From IMG/VR virus record IMGVR_UViG_3300028840_002041, positions 1 to 49,101 of that record: a DNA stretch of 49,101 nucleotides; one strand, written 5' to 3'. Below, one piece after another: positions 6,654 through 30,312 of this stretch (positions are counted from its first letter, which is position 1; each line of letters starts with the position of its first letter). Both the position numbers and the translations under genes were made by a program. The stretch is from a virus. The notes beneath the pieces were generated by a model. The model did no database searches, was not told where the DNA came from, and saw only the letters and a program-made list of their open reading frames with translations.

Positions 6654-6716
6654 ATAACTTTTGAAGTTATATAATTAAAAATATATTTTTATTATCAAAA
6701 AAATTTACTAAATTCA
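6654..6716 (+). promoter_or_regulatory. Class II (putative late) promoter with upstream palindrome
   Basis: The palindrome ATAACTTTTGAAGTTAT (6654-6670) begins exactly 55 bases before TAAATTCA (6709-6716). The same geometry occurs at 19174-19236 and 30250-30312. A T-rich -35 (6686-6691) sits 17 bp before the -10. The palindrome centre would be near -58, a classic class I activator position. It drives the probable small terminase gene, whose ATG lies only 10 bases after the -10 box, so the mRNA may be nearly leaderless. Confidence 0.65.
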
Positions 6717-6725
6717 GGATGTGAA

Positions 6726-7646
6726 ATGAATAAGAATCCATTAAACTTACCACCCAAGGCACCGGATAAACACTGTAATGCGAGAACACCAAACGGTTAT
6801 TGTAAAAATTTAGCAGGATTCAGAACCGGAAAATTAGGTGAAGGTAGATGTTGGCTACACGGCGGTATGACGCCAGCCATTAAAAACGGCTCCAATCTTG
6901 ACTTGTACACCCAAACCATCTACACTAAGTTCTTGCCTACAAATTTGGCTATTGAGCTTGCTGAGATAAAAGTTGATCCAACATTTTCTTCATTGAAAGA
7001 AGAATATGGTTTATTGAAACTGATTGTACAAGGGTTGATTAGTAATTTACCAGCTGATTTAGCTCTGATGTATGGAAAATTAGTTTGCGGTAAGTGCGGA
7101 ATGGAGATGGACAGTTCAGATGAAATTCTTGTTCAGTATGATAAGGACAACGACACTGAAACTTTGGAAAAAAGATTAAAGCTGGTATTACAAACAATTC
7201 GTGATATGGCTAATGTCTTTGATAAAGTCTCCAAGGCTGAGGAAAGACAAAAACGATTTGTCCAAATGAGTGATCTTGAAGGAATTGTCATCCAGTGGGG
7301 TAAGATTTTGACAGACCACTTAGGTGATGATCCAAGAATTAATGAAATCCAAAAGGATATGCTTACAACAGGATTCTTTAGAACACCAGGCCAGCAAGAT
7401 GATGAGAAGATGGCCAAGTTTCATGAAATACAAACAAAGCTGAAATCAAAGTACAAGTATGGGAAAAGAAAAGGTGAAGTTGATACAATCAAAGATGTAT
7501 ATGTTGAATTGAATAACGAAATCAACCACTTTGACGATGCCTCACTTGATATTGAGGAAGCTGAGATTGTAAAACCAAAGTTAAGTGCAAAAGAAATATT
7601 GGCAGAAAAGAAGAAACTGAAAAAGAAGAAAGCCAAAAAGAAATGA
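6726..7646 (+). CDS. Probable terminase small subunit (306 aa)
   Basis: Residues 16-50 carry a Cys/His cluster (C-N-A-R-T, C-K-N-L-A-G, then G-R-C-W-L-H-G-G-M-T-P). This HGGxTP zinc signature is common at the N-terminus of phage proteins annotated as small terminase subunits or packaging adaptors. A second CxxC (CGKCG, about residue 120) follows, and the C-terminal half is helical and ends in a Lys-rich tail (KKKLKKKKAKKK) suited to DNA binding. It is longer than most small terminases. Large terminase lies 7.4 kb downstream, an unusual gap. Role inferred from motif and position. Confidence 0.55.
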   Translation: MNKNPLNLPPKAPDKHCNARTPNGYCKNLAGFRTGKLGEGRCWLHGGMTPAIKNGSNLDLYTQTIYTKFLPTNLAIELAEIKVDPTFSSLKEEYGLLKLIVQGLISNLPADLALMYGKLVCGKCGMEMDSSDEILVQYDKDNDTETLEKRLKLVLQTIRDMANVFDKVSKAEERQKRFVQMSDLEGIVIQWGKILTDHLGDDPRINEIQKDMLTTGFFRTPGQQDDEKMAKFHEIQTKLKSKYKYGKRKGEVDTIKDVYVELNNEINHFDDASLDIEEAEIVKPKLSAKEILAEKKKLKKKKAKKK

Positions 7647-8086
7647 CCAGTAAAGAATTTGATGACATCACAGTTGCTCTATTTGAGGAAGCAACGAAAC
7701 GCACCGGAATGAACTATTGTCAAACGTGCGGCAATACAGATGTAGTCACAGATATGGAATTGGTAAAGAAAGAAGATAAAGTTGGAGATTTCATAGTAAG
7801 TGGCGGAAATTTCGGTTGGTTGTTAGATACTTATGAAAAGTTTACTTTAGTTCAACAGTGTACGAAATGTAACAAAGGGTTTAAGTGTAAACTTGATCCA
7901 CAACAGTTAGTTGATTTTGTCGGTGTTGGAATCATAGATGTAGCAGTTTATGAAGGCCACGACAAGCTGTTTAAAGAGTTTTCTGTTGAACAGCAATACA
8001 AGGAACAATTTTCAAGAGTTTACATTACATCATATTACTTGTTGAAGTATTTCAAGAACAAAATTGAAAAAAAGAAAAAGGCATAA
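7643..8086 (+). CDS. Zinc-ribbon protein (147 aa)
   Basis: The start overlaps the upstream stop (ATGA). Two CxxC pairs (CQTCG near residue 26 and CTKCN near residue 74) form a likely zinc ribbon around a beta-rich insert. The C-terminal half is helical and ends in a Lys-rich tail. No specific family is recognised; DNA or RNA binding is plausible. The overlap with the putative small terminase suggests a packaging-related or regulatory partner. Confidence 0.65.
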   Translation: MTSKEFDDITVALFEEATKRTGMNYCQTCGNTDVVTDMELVKKEDKVGDFIVSGGNFGWLLDTYEKFTLVQQCTKCNKGFKCKLDPQQLVDFVGVGIIDVAVYEGHDKLFKEFSVEQQYKEQFSRVYITSYYLLKYFKNKIEKKKKA

Positions 8087-8123
8087 TGCCTTTTTAAAAT
8101 AAATCACTTGAATGGAGGTACAA

Positions 8124-8507
8124 ATGTCCGAACTGACTCACAATGCCCAAACTCTTATCGTGCCAATTGAGGATAAGTTGGCAAGGATGGATAAGGCCAT
8201 TGAAGATTTGTTAGCACCGCCATTTACTCCAAGAGAGCTTACAGCCCTTCTATCTGCTACAATTGAGGTGGCCAACGAGTTCCTTGGTGATGATGCCCAA
8301 GAGGATGAAATGATCGCACTGACTCTTGAGATTTGGAATTATTACGAAAGTAAATATGACCTTATCAACAAGATTGATGATGCGGTTGATTTCAGAAAAA
8401 TCTTTGGCACAGCAGTTGGAACTATTGTAGAACAGTTTGACGGCAAAGGAATTGAGATGTTGATTGAGAAATTAATCATCCCAATGCTTATTGCTCAGTT
8501 GTATTAA
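8124..8507 (+). CDS. Acidic helical protein (127 aa)
   Basis: ATG 8124 is chosen because GGAGG (8115-8119) precedes it by 4 bases; the in-frame ATG at 8112 overlaps that SD. The product is acidic and almost entirely helix-forming, with a hydrophobic C-terminal helix (IEKLIIPMLIAQLY). No family is recognised. Its base composition is richer in G+C than its neighbours, as in the capsid and tail-tube genes, which may indicate high expression. A terminator follows 28 bases after the stop. Confidence 0.65.
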   Translation: MSELTHNAQTLIVPIEDKLARMDKAIEDLLAPPFTPRELTALLSATIEVANEFLGDDAQEDEMIALTLEIWNYYESKYDLINKIDDAVDFRKIFGTAVGTIVEQFDGKGIEMLIEKLIIPMLIAQLY

Positions 8508-8534
8508 ATGTTCCTTCGTGACGGGTAACGGGTG

Positions 8535-8569
8535 AAACTGGGCGTCTTTTACAGGCGCTCAGTTTTTTT
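8535..8569 (+). terminator. Intrinsic terminator
   Basis: AACTG(G)GCG (8536-8543) pairs with CGC(T)CAGTT (8555-8563), followed by a run of seven T. It ends the small-terminase transcription unit. Bases 8570-8612 hold TTGATT and TATAAATT-like words that could form a promoter for the following gene, but the 20-bp spacing is poor. Confidence 0.75.
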
Positions 8570-8624
8570 GGTTTTGATTCGATTGAAGATTGGTAATTGT
8601 ATAAATTAATAAATGGAGTTGGAA

Positions 8625-11600
8625 ATGAAAATCACAAAAGACAAATGTGGTAAAAAGGGAAGAAAGAAAAAAGGCATTAAGTTTTATAGTTCAATAGTTG
8701 TCTTACTATTGTTCACACTATTTATTGCCGATCTTGCCATACCGCAAATTAATGTTTTTGTAAGCCCTGAATTTGTAGCAAAATTACAAGCTGTAATTGA
8801 CGCACCGTATGATTTCAGCCCAGGTGGTTCATGGGATTGGAGTGGAGCTACAGTAACAAATTTGCCGACAAGTACAGGTGGAACATACATTGATTGGGAT
8901 TTAAACCCAACACTACCTGCTCCTCAACACCAAACCGGAAGAATGCACTGGTCTGCAGCAGATAATACGCTTGAAATCGGTATGCTTGGCAGTGATGTAG
9001 CATTACAGGTTGGTCAGGAAATTTTACTTTATGCTGAGAATAATTCTGGTGTAGCTATAAATAATGGTAAAGTTGCCTATGTATCTGGTTCAACTTCTAC
9101 TGATCCAGAGATTACAAAAGCAGATGCTGATGACCTAACAGCTTATCAAACAATTGGTGTAGCTACAGAGAGTATAGCAAATGGAGCAAGCGGATATGTG
9201 ACTACATATGGGCTTGTTCGTGGTTTAAACACAGATTCATGGGCAGCAGGGGCAATTTTGTATGTGTCTCAAACTGCAGGTGAAATAACAGATACAGAAC
9301 CAATAGCTCCAGCGCACTCAATTAGAGTTGGATACAATGTTGTCAAGGATGCTACAAATGGAGTTATTCTTGTAAGTACATTCCAAAAATACAAAGCTGA
9401 TGCTGATTCCTTGATGATCGGTATGGCCTATGATAAGCCAGCCATAACTCTTGTAGATGATAGCGGACTTAAAGTTGATGTTGAGAATATCAATACTGGT
9501 GATATGGAATTCAACATTGACGGGAAAAGGCTCACTCTTGATTGTACTACAGGAGCAGGAGCAGGTGGAAAAGCAAGAGCAAGTTTAACAGCTGGAGCAG
9601 ATGCAAACAATCCAATTACAAACTATATATATGTAGATGAAAGTGCAGGAGCAGCAAGATTACAGACTTCAACTTCACTGCCTACAGGAGCATTTGCTTG
9701 GATAGGGAAAGTTGTTGTACCTGATGCTACTACATTTGGTACAAATGGTTCTTATTTGTTTCAAAGATATACAGAATCAGTTAATGATGATCGTGGTCCA
9801 GTGTCGCATGAGAGAGAGAAATTGCGCCAGATGGGAGCCTTATGGTATTCAGGAGCAGCGCCAACATTAGATATTACAGTGAACGGTGGAGCACCTGATA
9901 ATGTTCATTTGAATACAGCATCAGGAACAGTTTATCAACTTCACAGACAAACTTGGCCGGCATTTACAGATGGGCCATATTATTATGGTAATGGTAGCAA
10001 TGTATATGAAAAGTTAACAGACTTGAATGCTGCTTTGAATTTGGATGACGGTACAGCAATCACAAATAATCAAAGATTCAATCTTGTTTTGTGGGGTGCT
10101 GTAAATTATTCATCTGGAGATTGTAAGCTATTTGTTAATTTACCGAACGGTACATATTTGAGTGATGGCAATGCTAAAGCTGACGTTAACAATACAGCCG
10201 ATTATTCTGTTCCTGCTGAGATGAGAAGTGTAGCATTTTTGATAGCAAGATTGGCTTTCAAATACACTACTGGTTCAAGTGGAACTTGGACAGAGTTAGA
10301 AACATATGATTTGCGTGGTGTCCCGTTCAGTTCAAGAACAGGTGGAGCTACAGTAACATCATCAAATGAATTTGACGATGCTTTATTTACTATTTATAAT
10401 AATGCTGATGCTACCAAGTCATTTGATTTTGATGCATCTGGAATAACAACCGGAACAGAAAGAACATTGACAGTTCAGGATGCAGATGGAACAATTGCTT
10501 ATACTGCTGACCAAGATACAACTGATCAAAATATCGTTAATTTGAGATCAAACGCACCAGAAAGTCCTTATTATTGGTTTGATGGTGTGGATGACGGTAT
10601 AGCTGTTAGTGATAATGACAATTTGACTTTTAGTGATTGTTCATTTTTATTTGAATTTGAAGCAAAAGAATATTCATCCAATATGCTGTTTGGGAAACAG
10701 AATACGGCTCAGTATGAATATGGAGTCTATATTGGAACTTCTGGAGAATTGATAATTACATTTTACGGTGCTTTAGATGCTTCAATATTTGTACGGTTTA
10801 CTACAGCTAATGGTATTGTTCTTGTTGACGAAACATATGTGCTGGCAGTAACTTTTGATCAATCAGAAGAGGATTGTATAGTGTATCTTGACGGAGAACC
10901 TGTTAGTGTCACTAAGTCGGAAGCTGGTTCATTTTCAGCTATGTTGAATGGAACAGGACAATTAGTCATTGGAAATAGGCAAAAAGATAATAATTTAGCA
11001 CACAATGGTAATATTGGAAAGTTAAAACTTTTCAACAAAGCCCTAACAGCAGCAGAGGTCAGAGAATATACCTATGGCGCTGTTGATTATAAGTATAAAG
11101 GTGCAAGTCAGACTGACTTAGTTACCAATAGCACATTTGATTCTGATGTTACTGGTTGGGGTGCAATAAATGGAACAATTGCTTGGGATAATACAGACAT
11201 TGGCGGTAATACTGCTCATGCAGAATTGACACGCACAAGTGGCAATGCATATTCAAGAATGAGTCCAAGATATTCTTTTTCAGCAGTAAAAAGTTTTAAA
11301 GCCTCAATTGATTATTATTGTCCATCTGGCCAATCTATAACATCAATAAGGTTTGGGATATTAAATCAATTAGATGCTAATCTTGTTAATGTTGATGATT
11401 TAACTACTAACACATGGACTACTCTTGAGTTGTATTTTACTTCAGATGGAACACAAACACAGTTATCACCTTATATAATGATATTAGGTGCATCTGGAAG
11501 TGATTATATTTATTTCGATAATGCGGAACTTACACAAATAGGCGAAGTAGCAGCCTATGAAGGCAGAGGAATTGACGACGGAATTTGGTATGATTCCGGT

Positions 11601-12332
11601 TCTAACGATCTTGATGGAACAGTATCAGGAGCAATAGCAAATAGTGCTATTCCATTCTGTTATATTGATGCTATAAATCCTGGTGCTAATGAATATCTGA
11701 TGAATATTGGTAAAACAGTTTCCGGTGTTAGAACAGACTTGGTAACATTAGATGAAGATGGCGATTTCTTTGTTAAGGGTTCATTTCTTGATTCAGATGG
11801 CGATGCTGGAACAGCAGGACAATTCCTTTCATCTACAGGAGCAGGTGCTACAAATTGGGCTGATGAATCTGCTGGTGGTGGGACTGATACTCTTGTAGTT
11901 GGTTCGATAAATAAGAATAGTGGTGTACCGTCAACAAAAGATATAGGCAATAATACTTGGACAAAAATAGATATGTGGAGTTCAACTAATACTTTTATTA
12001 ATTGTTCATATGATGGGACGAATAAAGGAATTAAAGTTGATTATAGTGGCCTTTATGAAATTACATGGGATGGTTCATTGAGAGCAAATGGCAGCGGTGT
12101 TAATGAGTATTCATTTAACATAGGTACTACTGGGTCAAGAATTGATCAGGGTAATGTAAGGATTGAATTAGATGCATCTAATAATTTATGGAGAGCAGCA
12201 TCATTGACTATACAAGCAGATATTGATGCAGATTCCACTATTTGTTTGTGGGGTATAAATGTTACAGATGGTGATGATATAACTATAAATGGTGGAGGCC
12301 TTGCAATAAAGAGATTGACATGGCAACACTAA
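8625..12332 (+). CDS. Giant fibre-type protein with N-terminal membrane segment (LamG, CBM-like, C1q-like)
   Basis: ATG 8625 is preceded by GGAGTTGGAA, a start region nearly identical to those at 12368 and 44430; the ATG at 8613 lies before the SD. A Lys-rich N-terminus (residues 1-20) is followed by one hydrophobic helix (about 21-42). Residues about 100-255 match a common phage-virion module (LQVGQE, IGVATE, GLVRGLN). Residues 645-817 form a LamG/concanavalin-type jelly roll (YYWFDGVDDGIAV start). Residues 834-970 resemble a carbohydrate-binding jelly roll. Residues about 1090-1235 look like a C1q-type trimeric tip (SGLYEITWDGSLRA). It is probably a receptor or glycan-binding fibre. The membrane anchor is unusual for a virion fibre. 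Confidence 0.75.
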   Translation: MKITKDKCGKKGRKKKGIKFYSSIVVLLLFTLFIADLAIPQINVFVSPEFVAKLQAVIDAPYDFSPGGSWDWSGATVTNLPTSTGGTYIDWDLNPTLPAPQHQTGRMHWSAADNTLEIGMLGSDVALQVGQEILLYAENNSGVAINNGKVAYVSGSTSTDPEITKADADDLTAYQTIGVATESIANGASGYVTTYGLVRGLNTDSWAAGAILYVSQTAGEITDTEPIAPAHSIRVGYNVVKDATNGVILVSTFQKYKADADSLMIGMAYDKPAITLVDDSGLKVDVENINTGDMEFNIDGKRLTLDCTTGAGAGGKARASLTAGADANNPITNYIYVDESAGAARLQTSTSLPTGAFAWIGKVVVPDATTFGTNGSYLFQRYTESVNDDRGPVSHEREKLRQMGALWYSGAAPTLDITVNGGAPDNVHLNTASGTVYQLHRQTWPAFTDGPYYYGNGSNVYEKLTDLNAALNLDDGTAITNNQRFNLVLWGAVNYSSGDCKLFVNLPNGTYLSDGNAKADVNNTADYSVPAEMRSVAFLIARLAFKYTTGSSGTWTELETYDLRGVPFSSRTGGATVTSSNEFDDALFTIYNNADATKSFDFDASGITTGTERTLTVQDADGTIAYTADQDTTDQNIVNLRSNAPESPYYWFDGVDDGIAVSDNDNLTFSDCSFLFEFEAKEYSSNMLFGKQNTAQYEYGVYIGTSGELIITFYGALDASIFVRFTTANGIVLVDETYVLAVTFDQSEEDCIVYLDGEPVSVTKSEAGSFSAMLNGTGQLVIGNRQKDNNLAHNGNIGKLKLFNKALTAAEVREYTYGAVDYKYKGASQTDLVTNSTFDSDVTGWGAINGTIAWDNTDIGGNTAHAELTRTSGNAYSRMSPRYSFSAVKSFKASIDYYCPSGQSITSIRFGILNQLDANLVNVDDLTTNTWTTLELYFTSDGTQTQLSPYIMILGASGSDYIYFDNAELTQIGEVAAYEGRGIDDGIWYDSGSNDLDGTVSGAIANSAIPFCYIDAINPGANEYLMNIGKTVSGVRTDLVTLDEDGDFFVKGSFLDSDGDAGTAGQFLSSTGAGATNWADESAGGGTDTLVVGSINKNSGVPSTKDIGNNTWTKIDMWSSTNTFINCSYDGTNKGIKVDYSGLYEITWDGSLRANGSGVNEYSFNIGTTGSRIDQGNVRIELDASNNLWRAASLTIQADIDADSTICLWGINVTDGDDITINGGGLAIKRLTWQH

Positions 12333-12367
12333 TGGTTAATAATAATTCAAGATAAAAGGAGTTGGAA

Positions 12368-12742
12368 ATGAAAAAGCTATTAACACTATTACTGGTTTTT
12401 GCTTTAGCGACAATAGTTGCTGCACAGTGGAATTTGGAGATTGAGATTCATGGAGAGATGAATCCAGATTCAACTAATATTTTTGAATTTAAACAGGACT
12501 TAATTGATGATGTAGCAGCAAGTCTTGGAGTTGATCCAGTATTTGAGATTACACTTGGAACAGCAAATATCACTGTCGCTGATACAATTCAAACAGTTGA
12601 TGTATTTGATGTAAGAGTTGAGATTGATGCGCAAACAGCAAGTGATTTGGATGATTTTTCAACAATTGTTTATAATTATTTCAAAGGCAAATTTGAATCA
12701 GCCAATTTAAGATTGGCTTATGAAAGAGTGATAAGCTGGTAG
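12368..12742 (+). CDS. Small exported protein (124 aa)
   Basis: The ATG at 12368 has SD AAGGAG with the same TTGGAA spacer as the large fibre gene. Residues 1-20 are a textbook Sec signal (MKKLLTLLLVFALATIVAAQ) with a likely cleavage after Ala-Ala. The mature part is acidic and alpha/beta, with repeated I-x-V/D-V-x-V-E-I-D strands. No family is recognised. It sits between the fibre-type gene and a beta-rich protein. A periplasmic or surface role is implied by the signal. Confidence 0.75.
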   Translation: MKKLLTLLLVFALATIVAAQWNLEIEIHGEMNPDSTNIFEFKQDLIDDVAASLGVDPVFEITLGTANITVADTIQTVDVFDVRVEIDAQTASDLDDFSTIVYNYFKGKFESANLRLAYERVISW

Positions 12743-12777
12743 TGTTATTTTAATTCTACTAATCAAGGAGCAGTAAG

Positions 12778-13119
12778 ATGCCAAAACCAATCGAACAGAT
12801 GTTTACAGCCTATAATTGGGAAAATTCCAATGGAGCAGTAGGTGATCACAGCCTTACATTCAGAGGCATTGATGGTGAAAATAACAATGAGTTTACAGCA
12901 CAGTTAGAGTTAACTAATGCTTCATTGAAGATTTACACATCAAACAAAACAAGGCCAGGTAGAACTGGTTGGACTGATCTGACAAGTTATTTTTCAGCTA
13001 CAGCGATTAATAGCAATAGAAGTATTGTTCAAACGTCAGATTTAAAATTTAAGTGGTGGAAGTTCGTTATCACTACATCAAATGCCACTAATACTTTTAA
13101 TGTGTACATTCAACGGTAA
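12778..13119 (+). CDS. Small beta-rich protein (113 aa)
   Basis: The ATG at 12778 has SD AAGGAG at 7 bases. The sequence alternates polar and hydrophobic residues with many Asn, Thr and Trp (TSYFSATAINSNRSI, KWWKFVITTSNAT), suggesting a single beta-sandwich domain. There is no signal peptide. It is reminiscent of small virion decoration or fibre-tip domains, but no family is recognised. It lies in the block of fibre-like and exported proteins. Confidence 0.65.
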   Translation: MPKPIEQMFTAYNWENSNGAVGDHSLTFRGIDGENNNEFTAQLELTNASLKIYTSNKTRPGRTGWTDLTSYFSATAINSNRSIVQTSDLKFKWWKFVITTSNATNTFNVYIQR

Positions 13120-13150
13120 CACATTATAAAAAAATTAGAGGTTAAGAAAG

Positions 13151-13696: not shown

Positions 13697-13705
13697 AGGG
13701 TATTT

Positions 13706-19162: not shown

Positions 19163-19173
19163 TGATAATTGAC

Positions 19174-19236
19174 ATAACTTTAAAAGTTATAAACTTAAAT
19201 AATTATTTTATTTGTTATAATAATTTACTATATTTA
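19174..19236 (+). promoter_or_regulatory. Class II (putative late) promoter with upstream palindrome
   Basis: The palindrome ATAACTTTAAAAGTTAT (19174-19190) starts 55 bases before TATATTTA (19229-19236), which continues CACTGTAT as in the copy at 30305. A T-rich -35 (TTTTAT, 19206-19211) lies 17 bp upstream of the -10. It would transcribe protease, scaffold and capsid genes. The mRNA leader would include SD AGGAG at 19250. Confidence 0.75.
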
Positions 19237-19259
19237 CACTGTATTCAATAGGAGCTATA

Positions 19260-20975
19260 ATGTCTTACAGTTATCCACACAATGTACCTGAAATTATCAA
19301 AAATATTCCTACAGCTGCTCAAAAGCTGTTTGTTAGTGCTTATAATGCGGCATTAGCAAAAAGTGATGACGACAGTAAGTCTATTGATGACGGTTGGAGG
19401 TCAGTTAAGACAAAGTACAAAGAAGTAGATGGTGAATGGGTAAAGAAGAAACTATCAGTTCAGCTTGACGAACGGGTAGCCTTGGAAGAAGTGCCTGATT
19501 GTTTGCCGGATGATGTTTTAGAATTGCCTGGTCAATTGCCTACTGCTTGGGCTATGATCTTTAACAAGTTGTTGGACAAAAACATTAGCTTACCTATTGC
19601 ACGTGATAAATCTTGGAGCATAGTTAAAAAGTATGTTTACAAGGTTGAAGATGGGTGGAAGTTTAAACAACTGAGCCCTGTTGAAGAAATCTTGGCAAAA
19701 AACTTTAAAAATGATTCAACATTAAGGAAAGATCAAATGAAGGTAACTTTCTTCAAATCCAATGGAAAAGAAACTGATGGTGATTTCAAAGTTGTTATGG
19801 GAGCACAGTTTATTGAGAAATCAGTAGGCGGTGAAAAGAAACACTTTTTAAAAGGTGTTGCTTCTGGGAACTGGTTAGACAGGGAAGATGACATTGTAAT
19901 GCCTCCTTTTATCCAAAAGATGAGAGAAGTGGCAAAAGGATTGCCTGTTTTTACTGATCATGTACGTACTGATGAAAACATGATTGGTTCTGTTGTAGAA
20001 TTAGAGAGTGATGATGCTGATGTATTTGATCCAATCACAGAACTTGAACCTCCAAATGAAAACCAAATTGTAAAAAGACTACAAAAAAGAATGGCCAAAG
20101 GTATTAGTTATGGTTATTCCATAGGTGGTAAGATTACAAAGGCTGTTAAAGTTTGGGATGAAACGCTTCAAAAGTTTGTCCGTCAGATTATTGATGGAGA
20201 TATTTATGAAGTAAGTGTTGTACCAGTACCTGCTCTTGAAGGAACTGATGTAACAATGTTCAAGAAAACTTTTTCACCTGATTCATTTTTCGCTTCAACA
20301 GAAGTTGATCAAGATTACATTGACCTTGCAAAAAGTGCCGGAATCAATGTTGACAATCTTGATGAGGTAGTTAATGCTGTTGTTGAAGATGAAATAACAG
20401 ATGAACAAGTGTTCTGGCTTGATTTCGAGAAAGCTGTGGATAAGTTTGAGAAATTAAGCGAAAGCCAACCTAAAGATGTTGATATCAATAGTTTACCAAG
20501 ATCATGTTTTGCTAAAGCAACTGGAGACAATAGGGAAGAATGGAAATATCCTTATATGTACAAATGTGATACTGGATTGAATAAAGTCCACTATGGCTTG
20601 CTTGACAAAGCATTCAATGATGCGTCAATGGAAGATGATGAACGTGTATTTAATTTCTTGAAGAAAGTCAGAGGAAAACTTGGCTTGTCAGAAGTTGATT
20701 ACAACTTTGTTGATTTCCGTAAAGTATTGACCTCTACAATCACAGAAGCTGTTGAAGCACGTGAGGCCAGAGTTAAGTTGAATGATATACTCTGGGAGTT
20801 CCAAACCAATGTAGAGTTTGTAGCATTGAATGATTGGCAAGATACAGATGAAAAGATTGCTGACATAAAAGGATTGACAGCGCAATTGGTTGATGCCATT
20901 CAAACATTGTCAGAAGTTATTTCCCGCCAAGTTGTTGTTACGCTAAAATCACTATCCTTAGAAAATATGGAGTGA
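19260..20975 (+). CDS. Prohead protease with N-terminal ChaB-like repeats (571 aa)
   Basis: ATG 19260 has SD AGGAG. Residues 5-65 and about 80-135 are two ChaB-like units (P-E-I-I-K-N-I-P-T-A-A-Q-K-L-F...W-x-x-V-K-x-K-Y). Residues about 170-335 match the HK97-type capsid maturation protease, with the LKGVASGNWLDREDD segment, His234 in FTDHV, the I-S-Y-G-Y-S-I-G-G serine region near residue 282 and YEVSVVPVPA. A C-terminal domain with L-P-R-S-C-F-A (about residue 413) resembles a module seen in other phage proteins. The protease cleaves scaffold and capsid subunits in the prohead. ChaB fusion is uncommon; its role is unknown. Confidence 0.85.
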   Translation: MSYSYPHNVPEIIKNIPTAAQKLFVSAYNAALAKSDDDSKSIDDGWRSVKTKYKEVDGEWVKKKLSVQLDERVALEEVPDCLPDDVLELPGQLPTAWAMIFNKLLDKNISLPIARDKSWSIVKKYVYKVEDGWKFKQLSPVEEILAKNFKNDSTLRKDQMKVTFFKSNGKETDGDFKVVMGAQFIEKSVGGEKKHFLKGVASGNWLDREDDIVMPPFIQKMREVAKGLPVFTDHVRTDENMIGSVVELESDDADVFDPITELEPPNENQIVKRLQKRMAKGISYGYSIGGKITKAVKVWDETLQKFVRQIIDGDIYEVSVVPVPALEGTDVTMFKKTFSPDSFFASTEVDQDYIDLAKSAGINVDNLDEVVNAVVEDEITDEQVFWLDFEKAVDKFEKLSESQPKDVDINSLPRSCFAKATGDNREEWKYPYMYKCDTGLNKVHYGLLDKAFNDASMEDDERVFNFLKKVRGKLGLSEVDYNFVDFRKVLTSTITEAVEAREARVKLNDILWEFQTNVEFVALNDWQDTDEKIADIKGLTAQLVDAIQTLSEVISRQVVVTLKSLSLENME

Positions 20976-21663: not shown

Positions 21664-21669
21664 AACTTT

Positions 21670-21721: not shown

Positions 21722-22726
21722 ATGCCAGATTTAGGCTCACTACAAGATGCTCTGAACAAAGCCCTGACAACTGCTGGTGGTGAAGGTGGCGATTTTTTGC
21801 CAACTCCGCTTGCCAACACTTTCATTGACCTTGTTCGGGATAAAAATGTTTTCAGACAAATTCACCGTGTTGTGAATATGCCTGGTAAAACATTTGATTA
21901 CCCAAAGATTCTTTCCGGCCCAACGGTGTATTATGAATCAACAGAGCTTACACAAGAAGCTGTTGAAACAACTATCACCACCGGAACTGTGCGTTTGACC
22001 GCACGCAAATTCATGGCGCAAATCAAAGCCTCTGAAGAGGTTTTCGAGGATGCCAATCAGGATATGGACTCTATTATTGAACAACATTTCGTTGCTGGCC
22101 TCGCTGAAGCTGAGGAAGAAACAATGTTGGTAGGTGATAGAACACATACCGCCACAGCACTTTCTCCATCTGTTGCTACAGATGGTAACTGGTATTCCAA
22201 AGACCATCGTTTGGCTTGGAATGGCATCCTTACACTTGCTGGTGATATTGTAGGTACATTGTCTCAGGGCAATCGTGCTGCTAACCGTGTCGATGCAGGT
22301 GGAGCAGGAATGTCAACTCAGTTGGTGCGTCAATTGCTGTACAACCTTGGAAAATATGGCCGTACAATGAGTAATATCGTACTGTATATGAATCCTTGGT
22401 CAGCGAATCAATTGCTCGATGACTCCAAATTGGTAACTGTGGACAAGTATGGTCCATCCGCAACAATCCACACAGGTGAATTTGGAAAACTGTATGGAAA
22501 AATCACTGTTATTAATAGTGATAAATGTACCGATCAGTATGCTGTTGGTACCCATATTTCCAACCCTGTAATTGGTGATCGTCGGAAAATCAAATTGCGT
22601 AAAGAAGACATCATTGAATATGATGCACGTAGAGTTGTTATCAGCCAGCGTGCAGACATGAAGGTAGAGCACCAGGATGCGCTCTGCCAAATTCATGATC
22701 TTGATGCTCCAAGCACCTGGTCGTAA
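21722..22726 (+). CDS. Major capsid protein (334 aa)
   Basis: The ATG follows GGAG (21712-21715). The sequence fits an HK97-fold capsid protein: an N-terminal G-G-D-F-L-P-T-P-L segment, an E-loop region (PGKTFDYPKILSGPTVYY), the spine-helix region (E-V-F-E-D-A-N-Q-D-M-D-S-I-I-E-Q) and the A-domain C-terminus (EHQDALCQIHDL). It lies directly after protease and scaffold. Codons are more G+C-rich than in neighbouring genes, as expected for a very highly expressed product. It is followed by a strong terminator. Cleavage of a long delta domain is not obvious, since the N-terminus is short. Confidence 0.88.
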   Translation: MPDLGSLQDALNKALTTAGGEGGDFLPTPLANTFIDLVRDKNVFRQIHRVVNMPGKTFDYPKILSGPTVYYESTELTQEAVETTITTGTVRLTARKFMAQIKASEEVFEDANQDMDSIIEQHFVAGLAEAEEETMLVGDRTHTATALSPSVATDGNWYSKDHRLAWNGILTLAGDIVGTLSQGNRAANRVDAGGAGMSTQLVRQLLYNLGKYGRTMSNIVLYMNPWSANQLLDDSKLVTVDKYGPSATIHTGEFGKLYGKITVINSDKCTDQYAVGTHISNPVIGDRRKIKLRKEDIIEYDARRVVISQRADMKVEHQDALCQIHDLDAPSTWS

Positions 22727-22813: not shown

Positions 22814-22836
22814 AAGTAGAGAAGATTGGAGAGAAG

Positions 22837-25005
22837 ATGGAATACCCCAGCAAGAATTTAATAGATGATGAAGCAAGAAAAGAAGCACAACCGGATAAAT
22901 TCCCCTCACATGTGGGCCAAAAGGATCAACCTTTAAATGATGGAGTTAATCTTGTCAACAATGATGAGATATTCTCTATTACACTTACCAAAAAATTTAT
23001 CAACAAATCAAATAGAACTGAGATACAAAACTTGCTATCACTGGCATCATCTCCTATGTTCTTGAAAATCCCTAATGAAAATGAAGTAGGATTTGGAGAA
23101 TTTCACCCTACAATAAAAGAAAAAAGTAACATTGTTATCTTTATGGATATGCTACACCATTATACAGGTGGTAGATATTCTATATTTCAACAAGCAGTAT
23201 TGCTTGGTGAACACTTTGGGGTAACTCTGGTAACTGATAAAAAGCCTCCATTTGTAAATGATTTCAAATCATATTCAGGTTTTGGAAATGTAAAGATTGT
23301 AGTTGATCCTAATTGGTTACAATCATACAACAAAAATCCATTTGATTTAGTAATTGGTATTCCAAATGTATCTGCCCAGTATGCCCACGAGTATGCTAAG
23401 AAATTCAGATTGCCATTTTACTGTTACATGTTTGAATCCCCAAATTATGTGTCTGAATTTAGAGATGGAGTGGATGCTACAGAGGAATTTTGGGCAAATT
23501 TCAAAAGAACAATTGTCCATGCTGATATGAGAATTACTCCATCAAAAACAAGTATGGAGTATTTGAAAAAGTGGTTAGGTTCAGATGATGGTAAATATGG
23601 GTATGTATATCCTTGTTTTAATAAAAATGTAGCAGACAGATTTTTAGATACACCAGAAAGTAGAAAGGCAACCAAAATTTACGACTTGGTAATGCTGTCC
23701 AGAATTGCTGAATTTAAGAATCCTGCACCTATATTCAAGTTGCTCAATAAAATGCTTAAAAGCAAAATAAGAGTGGCGATTGTTGGTAGAAATTTGACTA
23801 ATTTTGACTTTGTCAATACGTTTGATAAAATCGAAATAGACTTATTTGATACTGGAATAAATGATGAGAAGAAATACAAAATCCTGTCACAATCAAAGAT
23901 TGGTATTGTACCTTCAAAATTTGAAGGCTATGGAATGCCACCGCAAGAATTTCTATATTTCAATGTACCTTGTATAGCATATGATTTACCTGTTTTAAGG
24001 GAAGTGTATGGTGATAAAATATCATATGTTAAAACAGAGAAAAATTTTGCTATAAAGATATTTACAATGTTGAAAAGCTACAAGCCTGTTAATAAACCAA
24101 CTACAGGTTTAACTACACCAGAGGTTACAAAGGAGCAATTCTTGAAATTACTACCAATCAAGAATGAACCGAAAGTTGCTATTGGAATCTTAGCGTTCAA
24201 TTGTATTGATTATCTTGATAGTGTAATCAGATCAGTCTATGACGTTGTAGATCAAATAATCATTGTTGAAGGAGCAGTCGGTAACATGAAACATTGCTCC
24301 AATAATTCAGGCCATTCCATAGATGGTACATTTGATGCCATTATAAATGATGAATTGTATGATCCAGACAAGAAAATAAAAATAGTTATGAAAAGAAAAG
24401 GCTATTGGAAGAACAAAATTGAGATGCAAAACGAGATAGCCAAAAGAGTCAGAGCCAAATATTATATAAAGATGGATGCTGATGAGATATGGAAACCTGA
24501 AACTGTAACTAAGATTGTTAAATTCTTGGATGAAAATGAAAATATTGATGTAATTAGGATGCCTTTTCATCATTTTTGGACATCTTTTGGTATAGTAGCC
24601 ACAGATTCTGGAGGTAAGTGGTCAACTAAGCATCCAAGAGTGTGGAGATGGAGGGAAACATTCAGGCATATCAGTTCATTTAACTTTTTTGTTGACAAGG
24701 CAACCGGAAATAAGGTTGATGAGAACAGTTACAATTATTATGTTTGGAAAAATGATCATATTTACCATATGGGATATGCCAGAACAAATGAAAGAGTGGA
24801 TGAAAAATTAAAATATTATGGTGCCAGAAAGATTGAGAATTTTGTCGATAAGAATAGATACAAAAATTGGAAAGATGGAGACAAAACTCAACCAACACAA
24901 GATACACCAAGCGGTTCAGTGAAGTTTTCAAGAAAAGATTTGCCAACAGTATTAAAAGAACACTATTATTATAAACTAAAAGACATCAGAGGTTACAATG
25001 GATAA
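22837..25005 (+). CDS. Two-domain glycosyltransferase (GT4-like plus GT2-like, 722 aa)
   Basis: The start has SD GGAGAG, as at 5339. Residues about 80-415 look like a GT-B (GT1/GT4) enzyme: I-V-I-F-M-D-M...T-G-G-R-Y-S, a V-M-L-S-R-I-A-E-F-K-N-P strand, and the donor-binding SKFEGYGMPPQEF motif (about residue 365). After a linker, residues about 445-640 form a GT-A domain with I-G-I-L-A-F-N-C-I-D-Y-L and an MDADEIW metal site (about residue 548). Two transferase domains in one chain suggest sequential sugar additions to one acceptor. The first about 75 residues are unique to this protein. It opens the cassette just after the capsid terminator. Confidence 0.85.
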   Translation: MEYPSKNLIDDEARKEAQPDKFPSHVGQKDQPLNDGVNLVNNDEIFSITLTKKFINKSNRTEIQNLLSLASSPMFLKIPNENEVGFGEFHPTIKEKSNIVIFMDMLHHYTGGRYSIFQQAVLLGEHFGVTLVTDKKPPFVNDFKSYSGFGNVKIVVDPNWLQSYNKNPFDLVIGIPNVSAQYAHEYAKKFRLPFYCYMFESPNYVSEFRDGVDATEEFWANFKRTIVHADMRITPSKTSMEYLKKWLGSDDGKYGYVYPCFNKNVADRFLDTPESRKATKIYDLVMLSRIAEFKNPAPIFKLLNKMLKSKIRVAIVGRNLTNFDFVNTFDKIEIDLFDTGINDEKKYKILSQSKIGIVPSKFEGYGMPPQEFLYFNVPCIAYDLPVLREVYGDKISYVKTEKNFAIKIFTMLKSYKPVNKPTTGLTTPEVTKEQFLKLLPIKNEPKVAIGILAFNCIDYLDSVIRSVYDVVDQIIIVEGAVGNMKHCSNNSGHSIDGTFDAIINDELYDPDKKIKIVMKRKGYWKNKIEMQNEIAKRVRAKYYIKMDADEIWKPETVTKIVKFLDENENIDVIRMPFHHFWTSFGIVATDSGGKWSTKHPRVWRWRETFRHISSFNFFVDKATGNKVDENSYNYYVWKNDHIYHMGYARTNERVDEKLKYYGARKIENFVDKNRYKNWKDGDKTQPTQDTPSGSVKFSRKDLPTVLKEHYYYKLKDIRGYNG

Positions 25006-26245
25006 AGTGATCAAAAGAGAAGGTAAGAATTTTACACACGATATTGAACTTGATTCTGGTAAGAGCTTTGTTGTACCAATGATAGAGAAAGCAAAGTTTG
25101 AACAAGATGATATTGGTGGTTCAAAGAACATTGTACAAAATGAGATGGTCATTCATCCTTTACAGATTCAGAAGGAAGTGTTCAAGCCAAGAGATACACC
25201 ATTGAGTGTTAATTATGAAAGTGACAAGCCTTATCTTAGTTGGAAGGTGAATATAGCATCTTGGTCTGATGTTGACAAAAGGACTTTTGCTTGTTGGGGT
25301 GATCATTGGGTGAAAGTAAGATTGGCAGAGGAGTTAGAGAAGTTAGGTTGTGTCACTGATGTAGAATTGGATCAGGCTGATGTAACAATTTACTTGTTTG
25401 GTTCACCATTTAATTTTAGAAAGAAAAGACCATATCACTACAATCCATTATCTTACAATGTAGTGTGGTTCTATTCTCATCCAGAAAAATTCTCTCAACA
25501 GGAAGCGGCAAGATATGATCATATCTTCTGTTTATCAAAACAATATTTGGAAACCATTAAAGAAGGTTTTCATCATACTGTAGAAGATGAACCACTTTAC
25601 AGTTGTACAAATTTTACAACTCCAGTTAATCTTCCATATGGTAGAGATAAAAGAATCGCTATGGTAGCAAATGCAAGAGGTGCTGGAGCACCATATGGTA
25701 GAGAAGTGATCAAATTATTGAAACCACTCAAGTCTTGGATGGAAAGTAAAGAATTGAGAATGGAAGTTTGGGGTCACAAGTGGGATCAATTTGATAAATA
25801 CAATCAATTTCCAAAAGAATGGTATGTTGATAAGTATTACCCATATGATGATTTGGATAGGCTTTACAGAACTTCAAAAGCTGTAATAATTGATGGTCAT
25901 CCTGAGATGGAAGAACACGGTTTTGTACCTATGAAGATATTTGATGTATTTGCCTCTGGTGGTATGCCAATTATCAAAAGGAATGCCGGAACAACAGAGA
26001 TGTTTGGTGATTATGTTCTACAATATGATAGTGTAGCAACATTAAAAGAGTGCTTGGAAGTTCTTGATGATAGGGCTGAGTGCTTTAAGATAATCAAAAA
26101 AGGTAGAACACTTGCCTATAAACATACATATGCCAATAGAGCTAAAAAGATTATGGACTCTATTGCTGATAGTGTTATTGGTACAGATCAATTGAAGATA
26201 CCAGAGAGTGGCAACAAGGCAAAGGATAAAATAGTATGGTTATAA
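24998..26245 (+). CDS. Glycosyltransferase, GT-B/CgeB-like (415 aa)
   Basis: The gene overlaps the previous one by 8 bases with SD AGAGG. Residues 80-240 contain a Rossmann-like half with polar N-terminal leader. The C-terminal half carries V-W-G-H-K-W-D, Y-Y-P-Y-D-D-L-D-R-L-Y-R-T-S-K and F-V-P-M-K-I-F-D-V-F-A-S-G-G-M-P, the pattern of the CgeB/Glyco_trans_1_2 group of GT-B enzymes. It probably transfers a hexose or amino sugar. Acceptor and donor cannot be read from sequence. No signal or membrane segment is seen, so it acts in the cytoplasm. Confidence 0.75.
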   Translation: MDKVIKREGKNFTHDIELDSGKSFVVPMIEKAKFEQDDIGGSKNIVQNEMVIHPLQIQKEVFKPRDTPLSVNYESDKPYLSWKVNIASWSDVDKRTFACWGDHWVKVRLAEELEKLGCVTDVELDQADVTIYLFGSPFNFRKKRPYHYNPLSYNVVWFYSHPEKFSQQEAARYDHIFCLSKQYLETIKEGFHHTVEDEPLYSCTNFTTPVNLPYGRDKRIAMVANARGAGAPYGREVIKLLKPLKSWMESKELRMEVWGHKWDQFDKYNQFPKEWYVDKYYPYDDLDRLYRTSKAVIIDGHPEMEEHGFVPMKIFDVFASGGMPIIKRNAGTTEMFGDYVLQYDSVATLKECLEVLDDRAECFKIIKKGRTLAYKHTYANRAKKIMDSIADSVIGTDQLKIPESGNKAKDKIVWL

Positions 26246-26973
26246 TTAAACCAGAATTATTCATACTCACTTACAATAGGCTTGAGTATTTAAAACTTTG
26301 TTTAGAATCTGTATGGAATCAAACATTGAAAGTTCCAATAAATATTTGGGATAATGGTTCTACAGATGGAACAAGAGAATACTTGACAGACCTTTACAAG
26401 AATGATAAGTTGAATGGTGGTAAATTCTTTGACAATGCTTCTAATGTTGGAATAGCTGAAGCAAGGAATAAAGGATTGGAGCTTATCAAGAATACTTGTA
26501 TCATTATATCAGATGATGATATGTATTATGTTGATAAGAACTATTTTAAACATATGTTTAATTGTTGGAATCATTTGGTAAAGAAGCATACAAGAATTGC
26601 TGTTTTATCAAATTACCATCCATTTGATAAAGGCAAGTATAGTGAAAAGATTTTCAAAGAAGCATATTTGTTTGGCAAATATGAATTGCACTATATAACA
26701 GGATCACCTCCAGGTAATTGGATGCTTGATAAAGAAGTTATTTTGTCAATGAATGGATTCAGAATACCAAATGGTAAGAAGATGGGATTTGCTGCTTATC
26801 ATTTGAATAAGAGAATAAGTAATTCAGAATTTCCATTTGTAAGGATAGATAAAATTGATGGAAAAGTTTACAAAGGTGTGGAGCATATTGATACTGTTGA
26901 TCACCCTATGAACAAAAGGGACAATTACAAAGAGTACATTGAATTCAGAATCAGAGAGAAGGGTAAAGATTGA
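26236..26973 (+). CDS. GT2-family glycosyltransferase (245 aa)
   Basis: It overlaps the preceding gene by 10 bases and uses AAAGGA as SD. GT-A motifs are clear: FILTYNRLEYLKLCLESV at the N-terminus, DNGSTDGT (about residue 38), N-V-G-I-A-E-A-R-N-K-G (about residue 73), and SDDDMYYVD (about residue 93). The later G-S-P-P-G-N-W-M-L-D segment is the usual acceptor-side loop. It resembles the enzyme at 5339 in size and motif layout, so the two may be distant paralogues. Confidence 0.88.
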   Translation: MVIIKPELFILTYNRLEYLKLCLESVWNQTLKVPINIWDNGSTDGTREYLTDLYKNDKLNGGKFFDNASNVGIAEARNKGLELIKNTCIIISDDDMYYVDKNYFKHMFNCWNHLVKKHTRIAVLSNYHPFDKGKYSEKIFKEAYLFGKYELHYITGSPPGNWMLDKEVILSMNGFRIPNGKKMGFAAYHLNKRISNSEFPFVRIDKIDGKVYKGVEHIDTVDHPMNKRDNYKEYIEFRIREKGKD

Positions 26974-27953
26974 TGGTAAAGCCTAAATTATTGTATATTG
27001 GAACATTTACAGGGAATTGGGTATCAGATCAATTTAGAGAAACTGGCTTCAAACGCCACTTTGATGTAAGAATATTTGATTACAGAGCATATTCTAAAAC
27101 AGATTATATGAATATGAACAATGAATTGTTCAAAGCTGTATATGAATTTGGACCTGATTTAATATTTGTCAACAAAGGTGAAGTAATTTCACCAATGATC
27201 ATCAAGAGAGTGAAATCAATATTCCCTAATTGCAAGGTTTTCATTTTCAATGGAGATCAAAGAGGTAGAATACAAGATGAAACTGTTAGACTTGGTTCAG
27301 TTTCTGATGCTATATTGATAAATAACAATCATGATGAACAGTGGAGTCAATATTATGATGCTGGAGTGAAAAAGATATATGAGTATCACACAGCAACAGA
27401 TGCTAATACATTCAAAAATGTAAAGGTAGATAAGAAATTTGATGTAGTATTTGCCGGTGGTCACTATGGAACAAGATTCCCTTTGTCTAAATTTAGACAT
27501 CAATGTTTAGTTGGATTATCTAAAAACTTTAAACTTGGTATAGCAGGTGGTAGAAATTGGACTTCATTCAGTGGAATGGAATATGTTGGTCCAAAATATA
27601 GAGGTTCATTGACTGGATTTCTTAATTCAGGTAGGTGTATTCTTGGAATAAATGCTTTTAATGACATAAAGAATTATACCAGCAATAGAACTTGGGTATC
27701 AATGTCTACAGGAGTTCCATATGTCTGTCATACGTATGCTGGTATAAATAATTTCTTTAAACACAAACAAAACATACTTGTCTTTAAAACTGTAGATCAA
27801 TGTATAGAAACAGTTAGATGGGTATTGAAAAATCAACCAGAAGCAAGAAAAATTGGAATGGCTGGAAGAACACTTGTAAAAAGTAAACATTCATATTATA
27901 ATAGGTCTGAACAGTTGTTGGAAATTTGGAAGGAAGTGAAAGATGAAGCCTAA
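26973..27953 (+). CDS. CgeB-like glycosyltransferase (326 aa)
   Basis: ATG 26973 shares its A with the upstream TGA. The protein has two Rossmann-like halves. The N-terminal half has L-L-Y-I-G-T-F, F-G-P-D-L-I-F-V-N-K-G and K-V-F-I-F-N-G-D. The C-terminal half has D-V-V-F-A-G-G-H-Y-G-T-R, Y-V-G-P-K-Y and S-N-R-T-W-V-S-M-S-T-G-V-P-Y-V. This is the CgeB/DUF3880-type pattern often found in polysaccharide and flagellin-glycosylation clusters. Substrates are unknown. It is the fourth glycosyltransferase gene of the window and lies mid-cassette. Confidence 0.78.
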   Translation: MVKPKLLYIGTFTGNWVSDQFRETGFKRHFDVRIFDYRAYSKTDYMNMNNELFKAVYEFGPDLIFVNKGEVISPMIIKRVKSIFPNCKVFIFNGDQRGRIQDETVRLGSVSDAILINNNHDEQWSQYYDAGVKKIYEYHTATDANTFKNVKVDKKFDVVFAGGHYGTRFPLSKFRHQCLVGLSKNFKLGIAGGRNWTSFSGMEYVGPKYRGSLTGFLNSGRCILGINAFNDIKNYTSNRTWVSMSTGVPYVCHTYAGINNFFKHKQNILVFKTVDQCIETVRWVLKNQPEARKIGMAGRTLVKSKHSYYNRSEQLLEIWKEVKDEA

Positions 27954-28650
27954 AAGAAAGAATATCAATACACCTCCATATTGGGATGAAAAGTATAAAG
28001 GACTTGGAAAGCCAGAGAGAATCCTTTATTCACCACATAAGAATATGTATGAGAAGATTTGTGATTTAATCTTTTCATTCAAGCACGATAAAATGGTTGA
28101 TGTAGGTGCCGGCACTTGTGTGATAGCATTTCTATTGGAGAAAAGAAATTTTCATTTCAAAGATAGATATATGTTAAACATTGATCATTCAAAAGTTGGT
28201 TTAGAAATAGGTCAAACAAGGTTGAAAGAAACCAATGTTGATATTGATATCAAGGTTTCTGACATAACAAAGCCTATTGATATGAGTGATATGGAGCACC
28301 AAGACAATTATGACTTGGTTACATGTTGCGAGGTCTTGGAACATTTAACTGAACCAGTGCTTGCTTTGAAGAATATGGAGAAGCTGGTTTCAGACAAAGG
28401 TAGGGTGATTGTTTCAGTTCCACACGGTAGATCACCCTACAAAGATCATTATTGGATCAGTATTGACAATGAAACTATGGTTGGTTGGCACGAAGCTGTA
28501 GGGTTGACTGTTGATACAATTACAATAGTAGATAGATGGAAAATATTCATAAGCAGGAAGATTACAAAAGAAGATGCTGAAAGGATGTTAAGTAATGAAA
28601 GTAAACGCAGAGTCAAAGCCGATTTATGTATTCCAGTCAAAGCTGAATAA
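27943..28650 (+). CDS. SAM-dependent class I methyltransferase (235 aa)
   Basis: The gene overlaps its neighbours on both sides (11 and 56 bases). Motif I is MVDVGAGTCV (about residues 51-60). The acidic residue after strand 2 is in L-N-I-D-H-S, and motif post-II/IV is LVTCCEVLEHL, typical of small-molecule and sugar methyltransferases. An N-terminal P-P-Y-W-D-E-K-Y element is characteristic of this type. In a sugar cassette it most likely O- or N-methylates a sugar residue; that is inference. Confidence 0.85.
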   Translation: MKPKRKNINTPPYWDEKYKGLGKPERILYSPHKNMYEKICDLIFSFKHDKMVDVGAGTCVIAFLLEKRNFHFKDRYMLNIDHSKVGLEIGQTRLKETNVDIDIKVSDITKPIDMSDMEHQDNYDLVTCCEVLEHLTEPVLALKNMEKLVSDKGRVIVSVPHGRSPYKDHYWISIDNETMVGWHEAVGLTVDTITIVDRWKIFISRKITKEDAERMLSNESKRRVKADLCIPVKAE

Positions 28651-29785
28651 AAAATCAATTGAACTTGCCAATCAAGTTATGGCTGATGGATGGATTGGAC
28701 TTGGTAAGGTAACAGAGAAGTTTGAAAGAGAATTTGCTGAATATTGCGGAGCAAAATATTGTGTAGGTCTTAATTCAGCTACATCAGCACTACATATAGC
28801 ATTAAAGTGTGCTGGAGTTAAATCTAAAGACAGAGTTATGTCTACACCATTAACATTTGTAAGCACTAATGCTGCTATACAATATTTGGGTGCTCGTCCA
28901 GAATTTTGCGATGTTGACCCAGCTACACTTACTCAATCACCTGAAATATATCTTGATAGAATTAAATTCCATTATAGTCAGGCAAATGTTCTTCCAAGAT
29001 ATGCTGTTCATGTTCATTTTGGTGGTTTAGCTATGGAACCATCAATTATGGAGATGATTGAATCACAGTGTGGAATAACTTTAATAAATGACTATGCCCA
29101 TTGTGCCGGAGCAAAACATTTTGATGGTTCAATGGCTGGTTCATATGGTGATTTCAACACATTTTCATTCCATGCTGTAAAGAATCTACCATCACCTGAT
29201 GGCGGTGCTCTTGTTACAAATAATGAACATGTTTATAAAAGAGCGAAAAAGTTGAGATGGTTAGGTATAAGTCAAGATACCTTTTCAAGAACTGCAACCA
29301 AGGGTAGAAATAAATATAGTTGGATATACAATGTAGATGAACTTGGTTGGAAGTATCATATGAATGACCTTACTGCAGCAATACTTCTTGGCGGTCTTGA
29401 AACACTTGATAAAGATAATGCAAGGCGCAGAGAGATACGGGAAAAATACAGAGAAGGGATTGTTAATGGCTTTATAAAGCCACTTGGAAATCAAGGGTAT
29501 CAATCTGGACATATGGCAATATATCAAGTCCCTAAAGGTTGCAATAGAGATATTGTAATTGAAAGATTGAAAAGTGAATTTAACATACATCCTGGAGTAC
29601 ACTATATTCCTAATTATCAATTTAAACCATTTAAAGATAATACAATAGATTATCCATCTGATCCATCAACTTGGATTGTAAATGATATTTGGGAAGAGTT
29701 AATAACATTGCCGTGTCACCTGTTGATGTCAGATTCAGATATAAATAGAGTGATTGAAGCTGTCAATACAATATGTGGTGATTAA
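28595..29785 (+). CDS. DegT/DnrJ/EryC1-type sugar aminotransferase (396 aa)
   Basis: This is a PLP enzyme that converts a nucleotide-linked keto sugar to an amino sugar, usually with Glu as donor. Visible hallmarks are G-L-N-S-A-T-S-A-L-H-I-A-L (phosphate-binding, about residues 58-70), T-F-V-S-T-N-A-A-I, Asp166 in INDYAHCAGA (pyridine nitrogen) and Lys196 in FSFHAVKNL, the Schiff-base lysine. Length is typical. The 4-keto sugar would have to come from a dehydratase not present here, so probably from the host. The start overlaps the methyltransferase gene by 56 bases. Confidence 0.9.
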   Translation: MKVNAESKPIYVFQSKLNKKSIELANQVMADGWIGLGKVTEKFEREFAEYCGAKYCVGLNSATSALHIALKCAGVKSKDRVMSTPLTFVSTNAAIQYLGARPEFCDVDPATLTQSPEIYLDRIKFHYSQANVLPRYAVHVHFGGLAMEPSIMEMIESQCGITLINDYAHCAGAKHFDGSMAGSYGDFNTFSFHAVKNLPSPDGGALVTNNEHVYKRAKKLRWLGISQDTFSRTATKGRNKYSWIYNVDELGWKYHMNDLTAAILLGGLETLDKDNARRREIREKYREGIVNGFIKPLGNQGYQSGHMAIYQVPKGCNRDIVIERLKSEFNIHPGVHYIPNYQFKPFKDNTIDYPSDPSTWIVNDIWEELITLPCHLLMSDSDINRVIEAVNTICGD

Positions 29786-29786
29786 T

Positions 29787-30272
29787 GTGAAAGCAATAAA
29801 ATATAAAAAAGCTGATTCAACTCATATAAAGATGGTTTATTTGATCAGGAATAATCCACTGGTAAGGAAAGAGTTGATTTGCGATGGTGATATAAATTAT
29901 CTCCAACATATAGAGCATTACAACAAGATGTTAGAGGATAGAAATTATTCAATCTATGTTATGTATTATGGAAGCTGGATCATAGGGTTCTATAATGTAA
30001 TTGTAGATAGAAATAAAAAAGAGGTTGAGATTGGTTACAAACTATCACCTACATTTTGGGGTAAAGGTCTTGGAAAGATAATGTTCAGAGATTCTTTGTC
30101 AAAGGTAAAAAAGTTGTATCCCAAATATGGTATCATCTTGACTGTATTCAAGGACAATGAGAAAGCTGTGAAGATATACAAGAGTGGAGGGTTCAAATTG
30201 TCAGGGGCAAAGAAGGTTAGAGACAGATTATTATACACAATGAAATTACATAACTTAAAAAGTAATATTTAG
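29787..30272 (+). CDS. GNAT-family N-acetyltransferase (161 aa)
   Basis: GTG 29787 lies one base after the aminotransferase stop (TAATGTG); upstream in-frame codons fall inside that gene. The GNAT core is clear: E-V-E-I-G-Y-K-L-S-P-T-F-W-G-K-G-L-G-K (acetyl-CoA loop, about residues 82-100) and N-E-K-A-V-K-I-Y-K-S-G-G-F-K (about residues 125-138). With the adjacent aminotransferase it forms the classic pair that makes N-acylated amino sugars (as in PseC/PseH or WecE/WecD). It ends the cassette, and a class II promoter palindrome overlaps its last codons. Confidence 0.85.
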   Translation: MKAIKYKKADSTHIKMVYLIRNNPLVRKELICDGDINYLQHIEHYNKMLEDRNYSIYVMYYGSWIIGFYNVIVDRNKKEVEIGYKLSPTFWGKGLGKIMFRDSLSKVKKLYPKYGIILTVFKDNEKAVKIYKSGGFKLSGAKKVRDRLLYTMKLHNLKSNI

Positions 30273-30312
30273 ATATAATACTTTTAAATTACAAATATTT
30301 TTAATATATTTA
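30250..30312 (+). promoter_or_regulatory. Class II (putative late) promoter with upstream palindrome
   Basis: The imperfect palindrome ATAACTTAAAAAGTAAT (30250-30266) lies in the 3' end of the acetyltransferase gene and begins 55 bases before TATATTTA (30305-30312). The 16-base word ATATTTACACTGTAT plus flanks is shared with the copy at 19229. It would drive the connector and tail genes. Confidence 0.65.

Follow-up and report, generated by a model that had tools for sequence, protein, structure and literature searches.

Putative Activator-Dependent Late Promoters With a Dyad at a Fixed Upstream Place in a Group of Uncultured Tailed Phages

In a 49,101-bp stretch of viral DNA, three sites are probably tailed-phage late promoters that depend on an activator: a dimeric protein made by the phage would act at a dyad lying at a fixed distance upstream of a TATATT box. 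This stretch (hereafter the window) is the whole of the linear IMG/VR record IMGVR_UViG_3300028840_002041 (G000), a phage fragment that breaks off within an SNF2 helicase gene. Comparison with related records supports a conserved spacing and a drifting word, with the exact palindrome being lineage-specific, and the motif is therefore more aptly called a dyad that drifts in sequence while keeping its place. The preliminary description of this DNA had proposed a late-gene switch operated by a dimeric activator, and the proposal is strengthened by the predicted conservation of spacing, which is found, and by early promoters with a −35 hexamer that is absent at the late ones. A testable late-gene switch is thus suggested, from sequence alone, for an experimentally unstudied group of tailed phages, with a spacing that is replicated over genomes at only about 40–50% protein identity. 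The constant place and drifting word provide a natural set for studying the co-evolution of activator and operator specificity, and a source of orthogonal activator–promoter pairs.

Upstream Elements and Boxes in the Window

The three upstream elements, all on the plus strand, share the word ACATAACTT-NNN-AAGT-N-AT, which is longer than initially recognized. Element 1 (6652–6670; ACATAACTT-TTG-AAGTTAT) contains the palindrome ATAACTTTTGAAGTTAT (6654–6670), and its dyad centre is 47 bp upstream of a −10-like box (6709–6716; TAAATTCA) that is a weaker match. Element 2 (19172–19190; ACATAACTT-TAA-AAGTTAT) contains the palindrome ATAACTTTAAAAGTTAT (19174–19190) and is followed by the box TATATTTA at 19229, which together with a downstream word spans 19229–19244 (TATATTTACACTGTAT). 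Element 3 (30248–30266; ACATAACTT-AAA-AAGTAAT), which lies within the 3′ end of the upstream GNAT gene, contains the palindrome ATAACTTAAAAAGTAAT (30250–30266; one mismatch), and its box, TATATTTA at 30305, likewise spans 30305–30320 together with the same downstream word (TATATTTACACTGTAT). As the preliminary description had stated, the distance from palindrome start to box is exactly 55 bp in three of three cases (6654, 19174, and 30250), and copies 2 and 3 have a 15-base downstream word in common. The site at 6709 is imperfect, in that its box (TAAATTCA) differs from the other two and its leader would be only about 5 nt long.

A search of the whole record finds CATAACTTNNNAAGT exactly three times, confining the shared word to the three late sites; when one mismatch is allowed, the sole extra matches are copies 1 and 2 read on the reverse strand. 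Loose palindrome matches (up to three mismatches) occur in the window at the background rate (10 observed vs. 8.5 expected), so the signal resides in the near-perfect copies and their spacing. When the copies are aligned on their boxes, 13 of 17 columns are identical, which none of 5000 dinucleotide shuffles reaches. A box-free test gives the same answer: the shared word comes out as the top 15-mer common to the three upstream regions (0 of 468 dinucleotide shuffles).

Copy 1 directly follows a stop codon and copy 2 begins 11 bases after one, as would befit intrinsic terminator hairpins of the upstream genes. This reading is nevertheless most improbable: the A+T-rich stems fold no better than shuffled sequences (z = 0.07, −0.29, and −1.45), copy 3 prefers a different fold, and the fixed distance to the box would be left unexplained.

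Genes Downstream of the Late Sites

The sites had been described as lying directly before virion genes. This holds for the second and third, where PHROGs support the head maturation protease/scaffold gene (19260–20975, plus strand), the major capsid gene in the same operon (21722–22726, plus strand), and the head–tail adaptor (connector) gene (30329–31000, plus strand); PHROGs also support the portal assignment. At the first site, the product of the first late gene (6726–7646, plus strand; 306 aa), a probable small terminase with a 47% identical orthologue in the relative G004, has no match in PHROG or Pfam. Its C..C..HGG sequence and its conserved place ahead of the terminase region would fit a small terminase. 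Two related proteins, with repeated homologues in G004, are encoded at 5261–6088, where the product has a glycosyltransferase family 2 domain, and at 26236–26973, inside the head-gene block.

Conservation in Related Phages

Protein searches recovered a 90-kb record (G004) that is syntenic with the window at about 50% protein identity (portal 54%, capsid 78%), three more records extending over this promoter region (L006, L007, and the metagenome-assembled contig C119), and a more loosely related set consisting of G006, G409–G411, G413 (portal 43% identical), the 127-kb G414, and L063. G004 and G414 were counted as complete phages; close relatives may have escaped the search tools used. The only genome match is a contig binned, possibly wrongly, as Chloroherpeton thalassium, and a capsid profile found no further close relative among 395 Chlorobiota genomes.

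The window palindrome is not found at the corresponding places in G004, which at first looks like a refutation. However, at the starts of these three genes G004 has a different word, CAMCTCTAAWWAG, 57 bp before its box in all three cases (CACCTCTAAATAG, CAACTCTAATAAG, and CACCTCTAATTAG, preceding TACTTTTA, TATATTAT, and TATATTAT, respectively). A pattern drawn from these three sites has them as its top three matches across the 90 kb, and no shuffle out of 610 attains an equally good match among the three. An independent within-genome replicate is provided by G414, where AAACTTNTNTAGTCTC occurs five times (once with a mismatch), each time 55 bp before a TANNNT box. Three of these copies precede the portal gene, the protease gene, and the small-terminase operon, and the remaining two precede genes without a known late role. 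With the two clear sites of G411 (centre at 47 bp, plus a third, imperfect site), fixed spacing within a phage is seen in four phages (window, G004, G414, and G411); the small-terminase site of G411 has no good box (TGTAGAAT).

Before the protease gene, the centre of ACT-N5-AGT lies 46 (L006), 47 (G413), 48 (G414 and L063), or 49 bp (L007) upstream of the TATATT box; the G413 dyad, AACTT-TAT-AAGTT, is centred exactly 47 bp before TATATTAA. Variants at the same gene are CCT-TTAA-AGA at 45.5 bp in C119, which has the element only there, and CCT-TTT-AGG at 47 bp in G411. Across sites, the dyad centre is therefore 45.5–49 bp upstream of TATATT. In a scan of eight relatives, leaving out the window and measuring from dyad centre to TATATT box, the summed ACT-N5-AGT score is 38 at 47 ± 2 bp and 20–28 at every other distance (0 of 20,000 shuffles), with a core that was worded after some of the relatives had been seen. 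A scan with the window's 14-letter palindrome, left unmodified, also has its maximum at 47 ± 2 bp (65 vs. 46–59), which is unbiased though weaker support. The element is not seen at 47 bp in G409 or in G+C-rich relatives. Loss of the spacing in relatives had been named as grounds for abandoning the late-switch reading; instead, G004 and G414 carry multi-copy elements at late genes, and the eight-relative peak stands only at 47 bp. Anchoring on the box and its spacing reveals regulatory elements that are invisible to a search for shared words.

Chance arrangement in AT-rich intergenic DNA would agree with the background rate of the loose matches and with the outcome of querying all viral contigs with the exact bipartite motif of the window, a search that was set aside because its six matches all fall in one coding gene and are coincidental. 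Against this, no shuffle reached the observed values in any of the separate tests (0 of 5000, 468, 610, and 20,000), and chance is excluded for practical purposes.

It is also improbable that the dyad is used, without a phage regulator, by a host transcription factor or, in the manner of an UP element, by the alpha subunit of the polymerase. The upstream DNA is AT-rich and the position is near −59, a combination that suits polymerase alpha contacts. However, the word varies among phages at constant distance, which better fits a co-evolving binder encoded by the phage, and the signal takes the form of a dyad with fixed C and G positions rather than an A-tract.

Early-Type Promoters and the Position of the Dyad

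Promoters of a second type, CCTTTACTTT...TATATT (TTTACT, 17 bp, TATATT), lie ahead of non-virion genes in the window and G004, and their exact form has no match in the reversed controls of either. In the window they are located on the plus strand at 840–868 (TTTACT-17-TATATT, without a dyad), at 4836–4864 (the same form), and before replication genes at 46996–47024 (TTTTCT-17-TATATT). Judging from the genes behind them, these promoters are presumably early. In Chlorobiota genomes, checked as potential hosts for such promoters, the motif shows no enrichment over a reversed control.

The TATATT box is common to early-type and late sites, whereas the early-type −35 hexamer is missing from the latter, whose resemblance to it is weak (mean 3.8 of 6 positions; background 3.0). 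The preliminary description had placed the palindrome centre near −58, as for a class I activator; if TATATT is the −10 box, as is likely, the centre is near −59, and the class I contact itself is a plausible reading of this position. The late sites have two features of class I promoters of the sigma-70 type, a dyad near −60 with fixed spacing to a putative −10 and a −35 that is weak or absent.

In the proposed mechanism, a phage-made dimeric DNA-binding protein would appear during infection and bind the ACT-N5-AGT dyad, whose centre would be about 59 bp upstream of the transcription start, at a distance of 47 bp from the TATATT box, a class I position. The bound activator would then recruit RNA polymerase to the TATATT −10 box, where no usable −35 is present, and the head and tail operons would be switched on together. 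The sequences themselves show the element, its fixed spacing, the box, its recurrence before the corresponding late genes of relatives, and the lack of the early-type −35, whereas the −10 role of the box, the binder, its encoding by the phage, its contact with polymerase, and the transcript starts are what we infer.

Candidate Regulators

Among 30 proteins from the non-virion and boundary regions of the window, Pfam recognizes no regulator; as the record also ends inside the SNF2 helicase gene, the regulator is probably encoded outside it. Five relatives have a gene for an XRE-type HTH protein (G004, 1420–1890; G411, 12237–12773; G414, 8110–8424; G006, 3841–4287; G409, 88670–89065), whose profile matches XRE proteins in the PDB, including C.BclI, C.AhdI, and Esp1396I. 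Only the HTH core of its structure model is good; this core matches P22 c2 and C.BclI, at Foldseek E-values above 0.001 owing to the shortness of the domain. In G411 and G414, the gene for a zinc-ribbon protein of 108–131 aa (structure prediction weak: pLDDT 68, pTM 0.37) ends immediately upstream of the first late element, and in both phages the HTH and zinc-ribbon genes are kept just ahead of the late promoter. The best candidate for the dyad binder is the XRE-type HTH protein, encoded alongside the small zinc-ribbon protein and, in complete relatives, a few genes ahead of the first late promoter. A third candidate, a divergent phage sigma factor in G413 and G414, may function at the box in part of the group. 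A conserved protein of 130–280 aa, encoded between the helicase and DnaB, was dropped as a candidate as it shows no DNA-binding signal.

Repressors also bind dyads, and the likeness of the HTH candidate to P22 c2 and to controller proteins would suit an operator that holds the late genes off early in infection. This role is quite unlikely, given that a dyad centred about 59 bp upstream lies too far out for simple occlusion, that exact spacing to the box is the expectation for activation, and that late promoters without a −35 would be weak on their own.

We suggest tentatively, as a real but unproven possibility, that this uncultured group has one late architecture (dyad near −59, TATATT) in which activator and operator word co-evolve to give mutually orthogonal switches. 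The activator would belong to a new family (an XRE-HTH protein, in part fused to a zinc ribbon, or else a separate zinc-ribbon protein), and a divergent phage sigma factor might or might not take part.

Comparison With Known Systems

The late sites resemble the P2 late promoters, which are served by the zinc-finger activators Ogr and Delta, in having one dyad at a fixed upstream place before several late promoters and a weak −35. In P2, a single small phage protein activates both head and tail operons, and the relatives considered here have a small zinc-ribbon gene near a late promoter. However, the P2 dyad is TGT-N12-ACA and Ogr has the form CX2CX22CX4C (PMC3931495), whereas the dyad here is ACT-N5-AGT. 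At 17 of 18 sites the upstream DNA lacks TGT-N12-ACA, the exception being one off-position match in G004, and Ogr_Delta (PF04606) is found in none of eight records, one of them the window fragment, in a search that matched the E. coli control. Since neither the P2 dyad at the conserved place nor an Ogr_Delta protein is found, the best reading is that the late sites work like P2 Ogr promoters but are outside that family.

Controller (C) proteins of restriction–modification systems are XRE-type dimers that bind the quasi-palindrome GACT-TAT-AGTC (PMC3115060; PMC4321490). The ACT/AGT half-site and the matches of the candidate HTH profile to C.BclI, C.AhdI, and Esp1396I recall these systems. In contrast, the spacer is 5 here and 3 in C-boxes, which are two adjacent operators before the C gene rather than single dyads far upstream of virion operons, and GACT-N3-AGTC is not found at the sites.

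A lone −10-like box at late genes is also a feature of T4, whose late promoters are read by the sigma factor gp55 at TATAAATA without a −35. Two relatives also encode a candidate phage sigma. Sigma-70 region 2 exceeds the Pfam cut-off in G413 (41818–42444; L126:1818–2444) and G414 (122828–123391; L133:2828–3391), two of eight records; the proteins (187–208 aa) are homologous to each other at 5e-21 and have weak relatives in G411, C119, and G409. A phage sigma in the role of gp55 could thus read the TATATT box, with the dyad binding a co-activator or architectural protein and host sigma unused for late genes, and the lack of a −35 at the late boxes would agree with this. The possibility deserves attention but is on the unlikely side: no sigma match was found in G004, G006, or the window fragment, the early-type promoters use the same TATATT box, pointing to one sigma, and TATAAATA is absent at the sites. 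The fixed upstream dyad is a further difference from T4. A search for a single-subunit RNA polymerase gave no match and carries no weight, as its control was also unmatched. By sequence, the late sites are neither a C-box system nor T4-type late promoters, and we file them, as a new form, under activator-dependent phage late promoters.

Other Elements in the Window and Relatives

The early-type promoter at 4836–4864 stands in a 438-bp non-coding stretch of the window (4823–5260) with short inverted repeats (e.g., 4983–5004), possibly an untranslated RNA; it has no match in Rfam. In G409 (IMGVR_UViG_3300025131_000013; locus L109), a word similar to the late element appears to lie about one helical turn nearer to TATACT. 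This phage also repeats a one-block word, GATTCGYTANYTT, before early genes (e.g., 7421, 10316, 11331, 14657, 15611, and 19196), with six matches on one strand and none on the other or in the reversed control, a promoter-like element of a different, unsplit kind. The distant, G+C-rich L022, L024, and G010 have another common word, gCTTTCTTNCTTG, upstream of the protease gene, perhaps a late promoter element of their own. At 26979–27200 in G414, a strong terminator-like hairpin (AGCGCCTGTAGG...CCTACAGGCGCTTTTT) comes no more than about 130 bp after a late-type element with its box and precedes a gene with NUMOD-like repeats, an arrangement that possibly yields a short late RNA.
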